Source: Blastococcus sp. CCUG 61487 (GTDB lineage Bacteria; Actinomycetota; Actinomycetes; Mycobacteriales; Geodermatophilaceae). Taken from it: 64,000 nucleotides of DNA. Numbering within the stretch: position 1 is the stretch's first letter; every line of letters begins with the position of its first letter. The stretch is taken from assembly GCF_005222955.1 (NCBI RefSeq), contig NZ_LWUA01000221.1, positions 1 to 64,000 of the forward strand, given 5' to 3'. Below the pieces are notes generated by a model. That model had not been told where the DNA came from and searched no databases. It worked only from the letters and a program-made list of their open reading frames with translations. Shown in pieces: positions 56,010-64,000 of this stretch. The position numbers and the translations under genes were made by a program.

Positions 56010-58139
56010 ATGCGCAGCCGAACCTCGCTCCTCCGCTGGCTGATACCGGCGCTCGTCGCGATCGCCTGGCTGGCGCTCGCCGGACCGCTGGGCTCGTTCA
56101 GCGGCAAGCTCGGCGAGGTCTCGGAGAACGACTCCGCCGCCTTCCTCCCCGACAGCGCCGAGTCCACCCAGGTCACCGAACTGAGCCGGGAGTTCCAGTC
56201 CGAGCGCACCCTGCCGGTCATCCTGTTCTGGGAGAGCGACGACGGCGCGCTGGACCCCGCCGCGCAGGGCGAGGCGCAGGAGCGGCTGGACGAGGCGATC
56301 GCCATCGCCGAGGACGCCGGCGCGCTCGAGGGCGACCCCTCCCCGGTCATCCCGTCGGAGGACGGTGAGGCGCTGCAGGCCGTGCTCCCGTTCAACCCCG
56401 ACCTCGGTGACACGCTCAACGAGGTCATCGCCGAACTGCGCGGCCTGGACGGGATCGACGGGACGACGGCGTACGTCACCGGCCCCGGCGCGATCTTCTC
56501 CGACTTCTCCGAGGGCTTCTCCGGCATCGACGGCCTGCTGCTGGTCGCCGCGTTCGGCGTCGTCCTGCTGATCCTGCTCGTCGTCTACCGGAGCCCGCTG
56601 CTGCCGCTGCTGGTCATCGGCACCGCCGGCCTGGCGCTGACCGTCTCGCTCGCGGTCGCCTACTTCCTCGCGAAGCAGGGCTGGATCGACGTCAACGGCC
56701 AGAGCCAGGGCATCGCCTCGATCCTCGTCGTCGGCGCGGCCACCGACTACGGCCTGTTGCTGGTCGCCCGGTACCGCGAGGAGCTGCGCCGGGAGCAGTC
56801 GAAGTACGCCGCGATGCGGGTGGCCCTCCAGCGGTCCTGGGAGCCGATCCTGGCCTCCGGCGGCACCGTCATCCTCGGCGTCCTCTGCCTGGTCTTCTCC
56901 GACCTGGGCTCCAACCGCGGGCTGGGCCCGATCTCGGCGGTCTGCATCGCGTTCGCCATGCTCGCCGCGCTCACCTTCCTGCCCGCCGTCCTGGTCCTGC
57001 TCGGCCGGGCCGCCTTCTGGCCGTTCCGCCCGAAGTACGGCCAGGAGGTCGCGCACGGCAAGGGCTGGGAGCGGATCGCGACCTCGGTGGGACGGCGCCC
57101 TCGCCGCTACCTGCTGGCCAGCGGTGGCGCGCTCATCGCCCTGTCGCTGTTCGTGCCGCTGTTCGACTCCGACGGCATCCCGCTGTCCGAGGCGGTGCGC
57201 GGCGGCTCGGAGTCCGGTGCCGGCCAGGAGGCGATCGCCCGGCACTTCGAGGCGGGCGCCGCGAGCCCGGCGATCATCATCACGCCGGCCGACGGCTGGC
57301 AGGAGGTCGCCGAGGCGGCGGCCGCTACCGACGGCGTCGCCGAGGTGGAGCCGTTCACCGGCGAGCAGGCCGGCCCGCCCGGGGCGGCCGGTGGCGAGCC
57401 GGTGGAGGTCGACGGACTCGTGCGGCTCGAGGCGACCCTGGACGACGCTCCCGACAGCGAGGCGGCGCAGAGCACGGTCTCGGACCTGCGGACGACGGTG
57501 CGCGACGTCGACCCCGACGCCCTGGTCGGCGGCTCGAGCGCCCAGGATCTCGACACCCAGGAGACGGCGGCCCGCGACCTGCTGGTCATCGTCCCGCTGG
57601 TGCTGCTGGTGATCACCGTCGTGCTGGCGCTGCTGCTGCGGGCGATCGTGGCACCGGTCCTGCTCGTCGCGACGACGGCGCTTAGCACGCTCGCGACCGT
57701 CGGCGTCGGCGCGCTGGTCTTCGAGCACCTGTTCCAGTTCCCGGGCAGCGATCCGCAGGTGCTGCTCATCGGGTTCGTGTTCCTGGTGGCGCTGGGGATC
57801 GACTACAACATCTTCCTCATGACCCGGGCGCGCGAGGAGTCGATCCGGCACGGGGCACGGGACGGCGTGCTGCGCGCGCTGGCGGTGACCGGCGGGGTGA
57901 TCACCAGCGCCGGGCTGGTGCTGGCGGCGACCTTCGGGGCGCTCACCGTGCTGCCGCTGGTCATCCTCATCCAGCTCGGGTTCCTGGTCGGGTTCGGCGT
58001 CCTGCTCGACACCTTCGTCGTCCGCACGCTGCTGGTGCCGGCCGCCGTCCACCTGATCGGCGACAAGGTCTGGTGGCCCAGCAAGCTGGCGGACGGCCCG
58101 ACCGCACCGGCGCCCGAACGCGAGCTCGAGCGCGTCTGA
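56010..58139 (+). CDS. MMPL/RND-family membrane transporter
   Basis: A 709-residue integral membrane protein with the two-fold RND/MMPL layout. Helix 1 is at about 8-28, a periplasmic loop follows to about 165, then a cluster of helices at about 170-335 with GAATDYGLLLVARYREEL. A second periplasmic loop (about 385-520) is followed by helices at about 525-690 with LGIDYNIFLMTRAREE. Both Asp-Tyr pairs are the proton-relay residues of MmpL pumps. There is no CtaB/MmpS partner next to it. The substrate may be lipids or toxic compounds; the MarR neighbour suggests efflux. Confidence 0.92.
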   Translation: MRSRTSLLRWLIPALVAIAWLALAGPLGSFSGKLGEVSENDSAAFLPDSAESTQVTELSREFQSERTLPVILFWESDDGALDPAAQGEAQERLDEAIAIAEDAGALEGDPSPVIPSEDGEALQAVLPFNPDLGDTLNEVIAELRGLDGIDGTTAYVTGPGAIFSDFSEGFSGIDGLLLVAAFGVVLLILLVVYRSPLLPLLVIGTAGLALTVSLAVAYFLAKQGWIDVNGQSQGIASILVVGAATDYGLLLVARYREELRREQSKYAAMRVALQRSWEPILASGGTVILGVLCLVFSDLGSNRGLGPISAVCIAFAMLAALTFLPAVLVLLGRAAFWPFRPKYGQEVAHGKGWERIATSVGRRPRRYLLASGGALIALSLFVPLFDSDGIPLSEAVRGGSESGAGQEAIARHFEAGAASPAIIITPADGWQEVAEAAAATDGVAEVEPFTGEQAGPPGAAGGEPVEVDGLVRLEATLDDAPDSEAAQSTVSDLRTTVRDVDPDALVGGSSAQDLDTQETAARDLLVIVPLVLLVITVVLALLLRAIVAPVLLVATTALSTLATVGVGALVFEHLFQFPGSDPQVLLIGFVFLVALGIDYNIFLMTRAREESIRHGARDGVLRALAVTGGVITSAGLVLAATFGALTVLPLVILIQLGFLVGFGVLLDTFVVRTLLVPAAVHLIGDKVWWPSKLADGPTAPAPERELERV

Positions 58140-58637: not shown

Positions 58638-59585
58638 CTACACCCCGCCGGACCGCAGCCGCGCGAGCCACCCCTCGGCCTCGGCGAAGGCGGCGTCCTC
58701 CGACTCCGGGGGCACCGGCACGTTCTGCCGCCCGTCGGCCCGCGGGTACGAGCCGAGGAAGCGGACGTCGTCGCAGACCCGGTGCAGGGCGGCCAGCGCC
58801 TCGCCGACCCGGGCGTCGGCGATGTGCCCCTCGCAGTCCAGCGAGAACGAGTAGACGCCCAGCCGCTCGCGCGTGGGCCGCGACTCGATCCGGGTGAGCG
58901 AGATGCCACGCGACGCGAACTCGCGCAGCAGGTCCAGCAGCGCCCCGGTCCGGTCGCCGACCACGACCACCATCGAGGTCTTGTCGTTGCCGGTCGGCTC
59001 CGGCAGCGGGCCGGGCGGGGCGACGAGCACGAACCTGGTGACGGCGCCGGCGTGGTCGGCGATGTCGTCGGCGAGGGGCTCCAGCCCGTAGCGGGCGGCG
59101 GCGATCGCGGCGCACACCGCGGCGTCGTGCTCCCCGGCGGCCACCGCCGCCGCGGCCGCCGCGGTCGAGGTCGCGGGCAGCGGGGTGATCTCCGGGAGGT
59201 TCGCCGCCAGCCAGCGGCCGGTCTGCGCGAGCGCGTGCGGATGGCTGGCCACCGAGCGCACGTCGGCCAGCGTCGTCCCCGGGCGGACGGCGAGGGTGAA
59301 CGCGACCGGGAGGAACACCTCGCGGGTGATGAGCAGCGCGTCGCCGTCGGCCAGCCCGTCCATCGTCGCCGGGACCGAACCCTCCACCGAGTTCTCCAGC
59401 GGCACCAGGGCGGCGTCGGCGTCCCCCGAACGGACGGCGGCCAGCGCCGCCGGGACACTCGGGCGGGGGGTTCGCGTTCCCTCGCTGGTGGCAACGACGC
59501 TGCTCAGGGCGGCTTCGGCGAAGGTACCCTCGGGTCCGAGATAGACGAACCGCGTCGGGGGCGTGCTGGGTCGAGTCCCGGGCAT
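58638..59585 (-). CDS. pheA: Prephenate dehydratase
   Basis: A 315-residue enzyme of phenylalanine biosynthesis, converting prephenate to phenylpyruvate. The N-terminal catalytic domain has VYLGPEGTFAEAAL, ALVPLENSVEGSV and, at about 145-165, the Ala-rich and AARYGLEPLADDIADHAG segments ending in TRFVLVAPPG (TRF motif). The C-terminal ACT domain at about 205-285, with RGISLTRIESRPTRERLGVY, binds Phe for feedback inhibition. There is no chorismate-mutase domain, as usual in actinobacteria. ATG at 59585. Confidence 0.95.
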   Translation of the reverse strand: MPGTRPSTPPTRFVYLGPEGTFAEAALSSVVATSEGTRTPRPSVPAALAAVRSGDADAALVPLENSVEGSVPATMDGLADGDALLITREVFLPVAFTLAVRPGTTLADVRSVASHPHALAQTGRWLAANLPEITPLPATSTAAAAAAVAAGEHDAAVCAAIAAARYGLEPLADDIADHAGAVTRFVLVAPPGPLPEPTGNDKTSMVVVVGDRTGALLDLLREFASRGISLTRIESRPTRERLGVYSFSLDCEGHIADARVGEALAALHRVCDDVRFLGSYPRADGRQNVPVPPESEDAAFAEAEGWLARLRSGGV

Positions 59586-59696: not shown

Positions 59697-61405
59697 GTGT
59701 CCCGCGCCTCGTCACCCACCTCGTCGCCGCCGCCGTCCCCGGCCGACTCCTCGCCGGCCGCGCGGGCAGCGCTGCAGGCGGCCCTGTGGCACCTGCTGGA
59801 CGCCGGCGACCGGGAGGTCGGCGCCTTCCGGGCGGTCCTCGACGAGGTCGACGACGCCCTGTCCGGGACCGACGAGCCGTACTGGCGCGCGTGGCGGTCC
59901 GCGGTGGCGGCGCGGAGCAGCCAGGTCGACGGCGACCTCGAGGCCGTCGGCGCGGCGGTCGGCGCCGCCCGCGAGACCCTGGCCGAGTGCCTGCCGTCGG
60001 TGTGGACGGCGCTGGCGCTGGCGTACCTGGCGCACGTCGAAGCGGGCGCCGACCACGTGGACGCCGCGATGCTCATGGCGGTCGACGCCAGCCTGCTCAC
60101 CGACGAGCCGTCGGCCCAGGAGCCGTCCCGCGCTCTCCTGCAGGCACACCGCTGGCTGGCGCTGACCCTGTCCGCGCTGGACCTCGAGGAGCTCGCCGTC
60201 CTGCACGCCCGCCGCGCGCACCTCGTCGCCGCGCAGCTGCCCGGCCTGGCGGACCGGTGGCGGACCCTGCTGCTCAGCGCCGCCCAGCAGGTCGAGCTCG
60301 CCCAGACGCTGCACCGGCGCGGTGACGGGCCCCGGGCGCCGAGCTCGCCGCCGAGGCGACCGCGTGCGCCGTCGCCGCCCGGGAGCTGGACATCGACACC
60401 ACCGCGGCCGAGGCACACGCCCTCGACCTGGTGCAGGCGTGGGCGCTGGCCTGCGCCGGCGACCTCGACGGCGCGCTGGGGCCGCTGCGCAGCGTGCAGC
60501 GGCGGGTCCAGGCCGACGGCGACGTCTGGCTGCGCGGCCACACCGACCTCGTCCTCGCCCGCCTGCTCGCCCGGATGTCCGCCCGCGACGGCGATCCGAA
60601 CGCCGGCGAGGAGGCCGTGCAGCTGCTCGTCGACGCCTCCGGTGCGTTCGCCGCGACCGGCGACCGGCGCCGCTACCGCCAGTGCCTGCTCGAGCTGGGC
60701 CGCACCAGCGCCGACCTGGGCCGCTCCGCCGACGCGCTGCACTGGCTGGAGGCCTACCGCGCCGACACCGGCCGCGCGAACGCGCAGGGCCGGCAGCTGT
60801 GGGCCGAGATGTTCGTCCGTCGCAGCCGGCTCCGGGAGGCCGAGCGGCAGACCGCCGTCCTGCGCCGGCACGCGCTCGAGGACCCGCTCACCGGGCTGGG
60901 CAACCGGCGCAGCGCCGAGCGCCGGCTGGCCGGGCTGCGGCTGGGCGAGGAGCCGCTGTCGCTGGCGGTGGTCGACGTCGACAGGTTCAAGGAGGTCAAC
61001 GACGGCGCCTCGCACACCGAGGGCGACGTCGTCCTGCGCCGGGTGGCCGACCTGCTGCGCGAGCACAGCCGCACCGGCGACGAGGTGTACCGCTGGGCCG
61101 GCGACGAGTTCCTGGTCCTGCTGCCGACGGCGACCGAGGCGCAGGCCGTCGCGGTGATGGAGCGGCTGCGTGCGGCCGTCGCGGCCGCGGACTGGTCGGA
61201 CCTGCCGCTGCCCGAGCCGGTCACCGTGAGCATCGGCGTCGCCACCGCGCCCGAGGTGCCCGACGACGACCCGGAACCCGTCCTCGGCTGGCGCACGCTG
61301 TTCGAGAGCGCCGACCTGCTGCTGTTCTCCGCCAAGCGCAGCGGGCGGAACCGGGTGCGCGCCCCGGGCGGGAGCACGGGCGACGACGGCCGGCCGCGGG
61401 CATGA
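59697..61405 (+). pseudogene. Diguanylate cyclase with helical (TPR-like) N-terminus, single frameshift
   Basis: It starts at GTG 59697 with GGAGG 5 nt upstream and encodes about 210 helical residues. The frame then breaks in the GGGCCCCGGG run near 60327-60337. After one added base the sequence continues as AELAAEATACAVAARELD and so on to a complete GGDEF domain. That domain has DPLTGLGNRRS, VVDVDRFKEVND and WAGDEFLVLL (AGDEF variant), with an RTGD inhibitory site five residues before. The total length of 1709 nt is one short of a multiple of three. Either a recent frameshift or a homopolymer sequencing error; restored length would be about 569 residues. Paralogue of the next gene, with which it overlaps by 4 bp. 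Confidence 0.8.
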
Positions 61406-64000
61406 CGACGGTCCGCGGCTGGGACGCGTGGGGCACGACGGGCAGGGCGCGGCGCGTTCCCGACGACCTGCTCGACACCGAGGGGGGCGGAGTGCACAGT
61501 GCGCTCGTGCCACCGGGAACCCTGCACCAACGGGTGACCGCTGCCCTCGCCAACTGGCGGCTGGACGACGCCGAGCAGCTGCTCTCCGGCGTCGACGGCG
61601 AGCCCTCGCCCTACGAGGCGTCCGAACCGGACCCCGCCGGCGGCGCCCCGGACCTCGGCCGCGCCTGGGCCGACACCCTGCGCGCCGAGCTGCTCGTCCG
61701 CCGGCTGCGGGTCGCCGGGTTCACCCTCGTCGGCGAGCCGGTCTCCACGTCCGGCGCCGAGGCCGAGCCGGCCCTGGACCTGCACGCCGGTGTCGCCGGC
61801 CTCATCGACGGCCACGGCTCGACCGAGCAGCCCGGCGCCGACCACCGCTCCGAGTCGGCCTCCCGCGCCGCGCTGGCCATCGCCCTGGTCCGGTCGGCCA
61901 AGGCCGCCTTCGACGCCACCGACGACGACCTGCAGCGAGCGGCCGGGCTGGCCCGGCACGCGCGGATCGAGCTGCTCTCCCGGCGGATCGACGCCGCCAT
62001 GGACGAGGCCGTCGAGGCCGCCAGCCTGCTCGACCCCGCGCTGCCCCCGAGCCGGCTGCTGGTGGACACCCTCGGCACGCTGGCCGGGGTCCTGGCCGAC
62101 CTGGAGCTCATGCCGCTCGCGCTGGACTTCCAGCGCCGCGCGCACGAGGCGGCGCGCGCCGCGGCCGCCGAGCCCGACGCCCTGCAGCCGGCCGACGGCG
62201 ACCCGGACGTGCTGGTCGCCGGGGCGGCCACCCGGCTCGGCGAGCTGTGCGCCGAACTCGGCGAGGGGCTGCTCGACGACGGCTCCCCCGACGCCGCGGG
62301 CCCGCACTTCGCCGAGGCCCGCGCGCTCGCCGAGGAGGCGCTGCAGCTGCTGCCCCCGGACTCCCCGGGCCTGGTGGCGGCCCAGATCGTGCACGGCTGG
62401 GCGCTGGTCGGGCTGGGCGAGCACACCGCCGCGATCGGTCAGCTGCGCGCCGCGGTCCGGATCACCTCGGCCGTCGACGACCGCACGCAGCGCGCCGCCG
62501 CGCAGCTGGCCCTCGGCCGGGCGCTGCGCCGGCAGGGCGACTTCAGCGGCGCCGACGAGCACCTGGTCTCCACCCTCCACCTGGCCACCGAGCACGGCCT
62601 GCCCCGGCTGCGGCGGGCGGCCCTGCGGGAGCTGTGCACGCTGCACGCCGAGCTCGACGACGCCGGCCGGGCGCTGCCCTACCTGCAGACCTACCTGGCC
62701 GACGAGCTCGACCGGGTCGACGAGCGGCGCACCCGGTGGGTGGAGCTGTTCGGCCGGCGCAAGAGCCTGCTGGAGACCGAGCGGGCCGCCGGCCAGCTGC
62801 GCCGGCAGGCCTACGAGGACCCGCTGACCCACCTGCCCAACCGCCGGTACGCGGAGGCCCGACTCGACGGGCTGCTCGCCGGTGGCGGGGTGCCGGCGCT
62901 GGCCGTCGTCGACGTCGACAGGTTCAAGTCGATCAACGACGCCATCGGCCACCCGGGGGGCGACGCCGTGCTCCGGGCGGTGGCGGAGCTGCTCATCGCC
63001 GGCGTCCGCGACAGCGACGAGGTGTGCCGGTGGGCCGGTGACGAGTTCGTCGTCCTGCTGCCCGACACCACCGCCGAGCAGGCCGAACGGGCGCTCGAGC
63101 GCACCCGCAGCAAAGTGGCCGGCTACGACTGGGCCTCCCTCGGGCTGGACCAGCCGGTGACGATCAGCGTGGGGATCGCCTCGGCGGCCCGCGGGGACGA
63201 CCGTCGCACGCTGTTCGCTGCCGCCGACGGAGTGCTCTACGACGCCAAGCGCAGCGGCCGCAACCGCGTGATCCGGCTGTCGGGGGTCACGCAGAAGCGG
63301 GCCGCACCCGAGGAGCGGGGCGACGGTACGAGCCGGGAGGACGACGGCTTCGCGCCGCTGCTCGCCACGGCACCGGCCGCCGCGCCGTCGTCGCCCGCCG
63401 AGCCGCCGCTCGGGGTCGACCGGCCGGACGAGCCGCTGCTCGGCCCGCTGCCGCCTGCGCCGGTACCCGCGGTCCGCGCGGCCGCCGTGGAGCCGGAGGT
63501 CGTCTGGGCCACCGGCCGCACGACCGAGCAGGTGCTCGCCCTGGTCCGGGCGGCCCGCAGCGCCCACCCCGAGCGTCCCGTCCTCGTGCTGCGGGCCGGC
63601 GCGGACACGCTGGTCGCCCTGGCCGGCGAGCACGAGGGGTGCACGACCGTCGACGCCGCCGCGAAGGCCGCCGCCGTCGGGCCGCTGCCCCAGCCCGTCG
63701 GGCAGGTGGACGTGCTGTGCGCGGCCGCGCCGGACGCCGGGGTCGCCGCGGAGACCGCCTTCGTCGTGCGGGTCACCGGCAGCCGCGCGGTACGGCACGA
63801 CGACGTGGCCGGACCGGCGCTGCGCGCGTTGCTGGCCGACCCCGCCGTCCTCGGCGCGGCCGACTGCCTGGTCGTCGTCGCCGGGCTGGACGCGGGGGTG
63901 ACCGCGGCGGTGGCCGAGGCGACCGACGTGCCGGTCGTCGCCGTCCCGACCTCGGCCGGCCAGCCGCAGTCGCTCGGCGGCCTCGGCGCGCTGATGACGG
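61402..64000 (+). CDS. TPR-like/GGDEF protein fused to a LarB-like domain (3' end outside window)
   Basis: An open frame of 866 codons from ATG 61402 to the edge, no stop. Residues 1-460 are helical with TPR-like pairs (ALDFQRRAHEAARAAAAEP, AAIGQLRAAVRITSAV). The diguanylate cyclase domain at about 470-620 has DPLTHLPNRRY, VVDVDRFKSIND, and WAGDEFVVLLP with RDSD inhibitory site. A Pro/Ala linker of about 75 residues follows. From about 695 the sequence EVVWATGRTTEQVLALVRAA ... VVVAGLDAGVTAAVAEATDV and VPVVAVPTSAGQPQSLGGLG matches LarB, the PurE-like enzyme that carboxylates NaAD for the nickel-pincer cofactor. The LarB catalytic Cys would lie just beyond the window. ATGA overlap with the gene before. 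Confidence 0.82.
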   Translation, partial: MTTVRGWDAWGTTGRARRVPDDLLDTEGGGVHSALVPPGTLHQRVTAALANWRLDDAEQLLSGVDGEPSPYEASEPDPAGGAPDLGRAWADTLRAELLVRRLRVAGFTLVGEPVSTSGAEAEPALDLHAGVAGLIDGHGSTEQPGADHRSESASRAALAIALVRSAKAAFDATDDDLQRAAGLARHARIELLSRRIDAAMDEAVEAASLLDPALPPSRLLVDTLGTLAGVLADLELMPLALDFQRRAHEAARAAAAEPDALQPADGDPDVLVAGAATRLGELCAELGEGLLDDGSPDAAGPHFAEARALAEEALQLLPPDSPGLVAAQIVHGWALVGLGEHTAAIGQLRAAVRITSAVDDRTQRAAAQLALGRALRRQGDFSGADEHLVSTLHLATEHGLPRLRRAALRELCTLHAELDDAGRALPYLQTYLADELDRVDERRTRWVELFGRRKSLLETERAAGQLRRQAYEDPLTHLPNRRYAEARLDGLLAGGGVPALAVVDVDRFKSINDAIGHPGGDAVLRAVAELLIAGVRDSDEVCRWAGDEFVVLLPDTTAEQAERALERTRSKVAGYDWASLGLDQPVTISVGIASAARGDDRRTLFAAADGVLYDAKRSGRNRVIRLSGVTQKRAAPEERGDGTSREDDGFAPLLATAPAAAPSSPAEPPLGVDRPDEPLLGPLPPAPVPAVRAAAVEPEVVWATGRTTEQVLALVRAARSAHPERPVLVLRAGADTLVALAGEHEGCTTVDAAAKAAAVGPLPQPVGQVDVLCAAAPDAGVAAETAFVVRVTGSRAVRHDDVAGPALRALLADPAVLGAADCLVVVAGLDAGVTAAVAEATDVPVVAVPTSAGQPQSLGGLGALMT

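Follow-up and report, generated by a model that had tools for sequence, protein, structure and literature searches.

Does the long reading frame that closes a 64,000-nucleotide stretch of Blastococcus sp. CCUG 61487 (contig NZ_LWUA01000221.1, positions 1 to 64,000 of the forward strand; the whole stretch is called the window below) encode one protein in which a diguanylate cyclase is joined to a LarB-like domain, and what would such a domain do there? The initial annotation had read a single frame from 61402 spanning both domains, and had suggested either that cyclic diguanylate (c-di-GMP) signalling is thereby coupled to synthesis of the nickel-pincer cofactor or that a PurE-like domain had been recruited to sense a nucleotide. 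Here we show that the fusion is a genuine single reading frame. It begins with ATG at 61402 on the forward strand and stays open through the window end (window part 61402-64000; L009:1403-4102), and the continuation of the contig closes it with TGA at 64099-64101, about 100 bases beyond the window, giving a product of 899 amino acids (aa). The G+C content at third codon positions was 0.93-0.99 in all six measured segments of the gene, linker included, which is the pattern expected of one coding frame. The comparisons described below suggest that the product is probably a diguanylate cyclase whose C-terminal LarB, retired from catalysis, serves as a regulatory or oligomerising domain.

The domain order read initially, namely TPR-like region, cyclase, Pro-rich linker and LarB-like domain, proved right. 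The TPR-like helical region (about residues 160-455; 61879-62766, forward strand as are all parts of the gene) gave TPR profile matches below their cut-offs (TPR_MalT, 33.4 bits against 45; TPR_12, 27.8 against 30.1; TPR_2, also below) and appeared as helices in the model of the relative. The GGDEF domain (residues 470-622; 62809-63267) scored 126.7 bits with PF00990, against a cut-off of 23.8. It carries the active-site motif AGDEF (residues 545-549; 63034-63048) and an RxxD motif, RDSD (residues 536-539; 63007-63018), which we take to be the inhibitory site of diguanylate cyclases. The cyclase motifs AGDEF, RxxD and DxDxFKxxN were found in fused loci, RxxD in all those for which the motif was read out; one relative, L114, has AGDEY instead of AGDEF. 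The cyclase is predicted from these motifs to be active in c-di-GMP synthesis. Known GGDEF diguanylate cyclases that carry accessory domains (PF00990) share with the protein AGDEF, RxxD and the helical TPR-like region before the cyclase; what sets the protein apart is the LarB-like domain that follows the cyclase, joined to it by a disordered linker. This Pro/Ala-rich linker (about residues 632-697; 63295-63492) had the highest regional ratio of nonsynonymous to synonymous substitution rates (dN/dS) and a low predicted local distance difference test score (pLDDT) in the model of the relative. The full-length model (pLDDT 76.6; predicted template modelling score, pTM, 0.44), in which the placement of the domains relative to each other is unreliable, comprised a long helical region, the GGDEF domain, a low-confidence stretch and a LarB fold, with pLDDT below 50 at residues 602-682, matching the linker.

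The LarB-like domain occupies residues 698-895 (63493-64000, continuing to 64086 outside the window). The NCBIfam LarB profile NF033503 matched all of these residues with 114.5 bits (E 5e-33), under its cut-off of 175, and the match to Pfam AIRC (PF00731) fell just short of cut-off. The profile check proposed with the initial annotation succeeded for GGDEF and fell short of the cut-off for LarB. Scores with NF033503 were below 175 in 27 of the 28 fused copies for which scores were printed, as against 240-249 bits in 4/4 unfused LarBs; the single fused copy over the cut-off, from Modestobacter muralis (L184:7001-7606), reached 176.9 without the catalytic Cys. The best matches among solved structures were those of L. 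plantarum LarB, with 7mj0 at E 3e-21. We modelled the domain of L128, the closest named relative, which is 79% identical to that of Blastococcus sp. CCUG 61487 (pLDDT 87.1, pTM 0.87). The model aligned with the LarB crystal structure 7mj2 at Z 25.8 (VIA) with a root-mean-square deviation of 2.5 over 196 residues, and in Foldseek it matched LarB with a template modelling score of about 0.85 over the full length, N-terminal subdomain included. PurE structures gave Z of about 15-17 (maximum 17.5), well below LarB; the fold libraries compared list only part of all folds, and no absence is inferred from them. As modelled, the LarB fold is complete across both subdomains. The domain resembles LarB (NF033503; 7mj0, 7mj1, 7mj2) in the fold of both subdomains, in the PTS and IDxG segments and in sequence, being about 34% identical in the model match. 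It differs by its attachment to a cyclase, by loss of the catalytic Cys and of the T-S, G-x-H-R and Y-G residues, by lack of the D-x-x-R-x-x-R-x-G stretch that precedes the domain in LarB, and by its score below the family cut-off. With PurE/AIR carboxylase (PF00731, TIGR01162) it shares the PurE fold in its C-terminal half, but the fusion protein scored only 21.5 bits with TIGR01162 against a cut-off of 149.6. A strong PF00731 match elsewhere in the genome was taken as purE.

We compared the residues of 86 fused rows (84 distinct) with those of 45 unfused LarB rows (one gene entered twice), in L. plantarum LarB numbering. Cys221, which we take to be the catalytic cysteine, in agreement with its conservation and with the title of a published paper, was present in 45/45 unfused rows and in none of the 85 fused rows having a residue there, the 86th (L195) being truncated; fused rows carry Ala (65), Ser (7), Thr (7), Pro (3) or Gly (3) instead. 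This position in Blastococcus sp. CCUG 61487 lies just outside the window, at 64012-64014, and the Cys that the initial annotation had proposed to look for turned out to be Thr. Further differences were found for Ser127 (43/45 unfused against 0/86 fused, with Gly in 42 and Ala in 37), His158 (45/45 against 9/86), Arg159 (45/45 against 1/86), Tyr204 (45/45 against 0/86, Gln in 67) and Gly181 (45/45 unfused, replaced by Ala in 86/86 fused). Positions 127, 159 and 221 are varied in the fused group, with chiefly small residues and no conserved nucleophile. The replacement of LarB T-S-D by A-P-D (residues 776-778; 63727-63735) had been read correctly; these positions are mostly G-(G/A)-D in relatives, so A-P-D is one form of the loss of LarB T-S that is seen across the group. 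Retained residues include Asp128 (84/86), Asp231 and Gly233 (85/86 each) and Pro-Thr-Ser 199-201 (86/86 fused, 45/45 unfused), the last being part of the V-P-T-S motif at residues 848-851 (63943-63954). The fused group also has near-invariant residues of its own, among them Arg67, Glu92, His93, Thr97 and Phe137. Judged from these residues, the LarB half of the fusion cannot be an ordinary LarB.

The altered domain recurs across the family. A LarB-like match was found in 23/23 genomes of the genus Blastococcus, in frame with GGDEF in 20 and cut by contig ends in 3. Some LarB match was found in 111 of 112 Geodermatophilaceae genomes; the sole miss, G080, is not counted as a genuine loss, because its contig ends within the linker. 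The search for the same fusion in related genomes, suggested with the initial annotation, gave an in-frame fusion in 74 of 80 named GTDB loci, the other 6 being cut by contig ends; these 80 loci overlap in organisms with a first frame-checked set of 61. In that first set LarB was matched in 60 loci, 46 of them fused-type and 14 unfused. Separate genes with an intergenic stop, which would have spoken against a fusion, were not encountered among the 46 fused-type loci. The two domains share a frame in 40 of them (39 judged by motif, together with L114), a contig end interrupts another 4, and in L122 (G046) and L123 (G091) the frame changes within the linker. At L115 (G031) the domains are in frame with each other and a stop lies ahead of the GGDEF domain. 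In-frame TGA codons suspected in G075, G076, G077, G082, G083 and G111 each proved to be the gene's usual stop codon, lying where the match ends. The sister lineages g5-g7 (9 genomes) have unfused LarB in 7/7 loci fetched. Among the matches listed for 298 genomes drawn from the order, no fusion was found outside the family; listed LarB matches there of more than 90 bits had open frames of up to 882 aa, and 10 longer-framed loci had no GGDEF within the 4.3-7.0 kb examined. A chance open frame in GC-rich DNA was rejected as an explanation, since frame, domains and constraint recur in relatives. One unverified record titled Bacillus sp. AZ43 (L147) holds a Geodermatophilaceae-type domain with 69% identity, suggesting a mislabelled organism. 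In the open-licence literature we found no description of GGDEF paired with LarB, AIR carboxylase or nickel pincer, and no account of the fusion protein among reports on Geodermatophilaceae or Blastococcus diguanylate cyclases.

Pooled dN/dS over 31 disjoint pairs, by simple counting estimates, was 0.25 for the LarB-like domain, 0.29 for the TPR region, 0.16 for GGDEF and 0.66 for the linker. Within the genus, the median for the fused LarB-like domain was 0.38 in 8 loci without LarC/LarE, 0.36 in 9 with both and 0.16 in 5 with LarC only, these medians being drawn from non-independent pairs in 22 of the 23 genomes. The ratios indicate that the fused LarB-like domain is under purifying selection.

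The downstream larC/larE that the initial annotation had proposed to look for were not found in Blastococcus sp. CCUG 61487: its genome (98.65% complete) gave no LarC match, no LarA match and no second LarB, and no LarE over the cut-off of 150, the weak matches reaching at most 38.6 bits. Across the 23 genomes of the genus the fused-type domain was found in 23, LarC in 15, LarE over cut-off in 10 (the LarE model gives weaker matches in all 23) and LarA (PF09861) in none. A separate second LarB is present in 10 of the 23, the same 10 that have LarE, and the 7 that were read all retain the Cys and GTSD. These 10 genomes have LarB, LarE and LarC together; with LarA in no Blastococcus genome, the nickel-pincer cofactor is left without a known user there, as PMC11796402 notes for cyanobacteria. 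In the 101 genomes called fused-type from the match list, LarE was found in 62, LarC in 73 and neither in 28 at the cut-offs used, and LarE never occurred without LarC. The 28 genomes lacking both, Blastococcus sp. CCUG 61487 among them, are each 95-100% complete; persistence of the fused domain in these 28 of 101 argues that it is independent of the nickel-pincer pathway. Five Blastococcus genomes (G002, G011, G013, G015 and G017) have LarC with no LarE over cut-off and no separate LarB. Their LarC scores are 312-362 bits as against 421-439, their fused domains are those with the dN/dS median of 0.16, and their LarC may have been repurposed together with the fusion.

How could such a protein have arisen? 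In Blastococcus sp. CCUG 61487 the fusion gene is preceded by another TPR-GGDEF gene, GGDEF1 (C-terminal part 60431-61405, forward strand), the stop of which overlaps the fusion start codon, and by the divergent pheA (prephenate dehydratase; 58638-59585, reverse strand; PF00800, 165.3 bits), which from synteny marks the ancestral pheA/larB-larC locus. The order in lineage g7 (L094-L097) is groES, divergent pheA, larB and larC, and g6 (L098) has larB-larC on a short contig. Beyond these, pheA stands beside larB-larC in a single genome from each of the families f7, f9 and f14 and about 4 kb from it in f12, and was not seen in f5 and f4. Fused loci have the order pheA, GGDEF1, GGDEF2/LarB-like, then larC where it is kept; in the fused locus of Klenkia (L189) groES is still beside pheA. 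In the tree, 15 fused rows form one clade with support of 100/100. From gene order and this single clade, one fusion in place followed by catalytic decay is the simplest history. The synteny suggests that in the ancestor of most Geodermatophilaceae a TPR-GGDEF gene pair came between pheA and larB-larC, and that the second gene of the pair was joined in frame to larB. The LarB part would then have lost the catalytic Cys together with most conserved residues of the active-site loops and gained a new conserved set, while keeping the fold. The catalytic loss would have been made tolerable by a second LarB, which in relatives often lies near larE (e.g. L105, L108 and L111).

The non-catalytic LarB fold on its flexible linker would control the cyclase, in that it brings protomers together or binds a nucleotide-like ligand. 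Assembly is proposed because GGDEF domains act as dimers and PurE/LarB folds make higher oligomers; the titles of PurE structures matched in the fold comparison include octameric PurE, whereas among the papers listed for a LarB oligomer none was taken as evidence. A more specific version, in which the decayed LarB pocket still binds nicotinic acid adenine dinucleotide (NaAD), NAD or a related dinucleotide without turnover and makes the protein a pyridine-nucleotide-sensing cyclase, is conceivable but on the whole unlikely. The recruitment of a PurE-like domain put forward initially fits in form, as recruitment of a LarB fold that is conserved with its catalytic residues gone, and the earlier interpretation as a whole is partly supported.

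Several observations weigh against a retired LarB fused in place. The fused-type call for the 101 genomes came from the match list, with the frame checked only in the 61-locus and 80-locus sets; the two genomes outside g5-g7 that are missing from the 101 are G080 and G097, the latter 72% complete. Of the 73 genomes having LarC, 54 carry it less than 1 kb downstream of the fused gene on the same strand, which points to a possible lasting link with cofactor synthesis; in the remainder it is further off on the same contig and strand (8) or elsewhere (11). The fused clade is attached by a long stem (1.25), nearby forks are open and the nearest LarB group is not resolved, so the in-place origin rests on synteny. 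Finally, a search of the nine g5-g7 genomes for a TPR-GGDEF precursor turned up no close one; matches there that extend into the helical part were 31-35% identical.

Among other explanations, the LarB-like domain might still be an enzyme, carrying out a new Cys-independent reaction on a nucleotide or pyridine compound in a bifunctional protein. The new conserved residues (e.g. Arg67, Glu92, His93 and Phe137), the retained Asp128, PTS199-201, Asp231 and Gly233, and purifying selection would all suit an enzyme. However, most LarB catalytic-loop residues are changed and positions 127, 159 and 221 vary without a conserved nucleophile, and we consider this unlikely. Also unlikely is a role as docking or regulatory partner of the nickel-pincer pathway, in which the domain might, for example, bind intact LarB or LarC and report on the pathway. 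The closeness of larC downstream in 54/73 genomes with both, and the absence of LarE without LarC in all 101, speak for such a partner, but 28/101 genomes keep the domain although they lack LarC and LarE, its constraint within the genus being similar, and LarC is elsewhere in 11/73. That the domain is a functionless passenger of a chance gene fusion would agree with the fast change on the stem and with the linker frame changes in 2/46 fused-type loci; it is improbable given a dN/dS of 0.25, near the TPR value and far below that of the linker, and the presence of the domain across genera after long divergence. A working LarB tied to c-di-GMP signalling, as first suggested, is very improbable. 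The full-length LarB fold and the one copy of 28 scored that passes the cut-off (L184) favour it, but Cys221 is found in 0/85 fused rows and several further motifs are lost; in Blastococcus sp. CCUG 61487 neither LarC nor LarA is matched, LarE stays below cut-off and there is no second LarB; and LarE over cut-off in the genus is confined to the 10 genomes that also have a separate LarB. An assembly or frame-reading artefact, to which the frame change in the preceding gene of this assembly and the long chance frames of GC-rich DNA might point, is refuted by the in-frame fusion in 74/80 named loci from many separate records.

GGDEF1 itself lies in two frames in this assembly, changing near 60326-60338, and is a single 574-aa frame in the relative L128; the change may be a sequencing error or a real break. 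Next to pheA is an MMPL family transporter gene (56010-58139; PF03176, 397.5 bits), a relative of which lies near 8 of 13 compared fused loci.

A cyclase carrying a retired LarB would be a traceable capture of a metabolic enzyme into a second-messenger protein, with the states before and after its retirement from catalysis readable in living genomes. Nickel-pincer gene counts made by profile alone can mislead by including Cys-less fusions, because the Cys-less L184 passes the LarB cut-off. The LarB-like domain is a candidate for a new type of input or assembly domain of diguanylate cyclases, in soil and stone actinobacteria. A likely target of the c-di-GMP in Geodermatophilaceae is twin-motif RsiG, present in 16/16 species examined in PMC8325347. 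If the decayed pocket does still bind a pyridine dinucleotide, the status of the NAD pathway would set the c-di-GMP level in Geodermatophilaceae.

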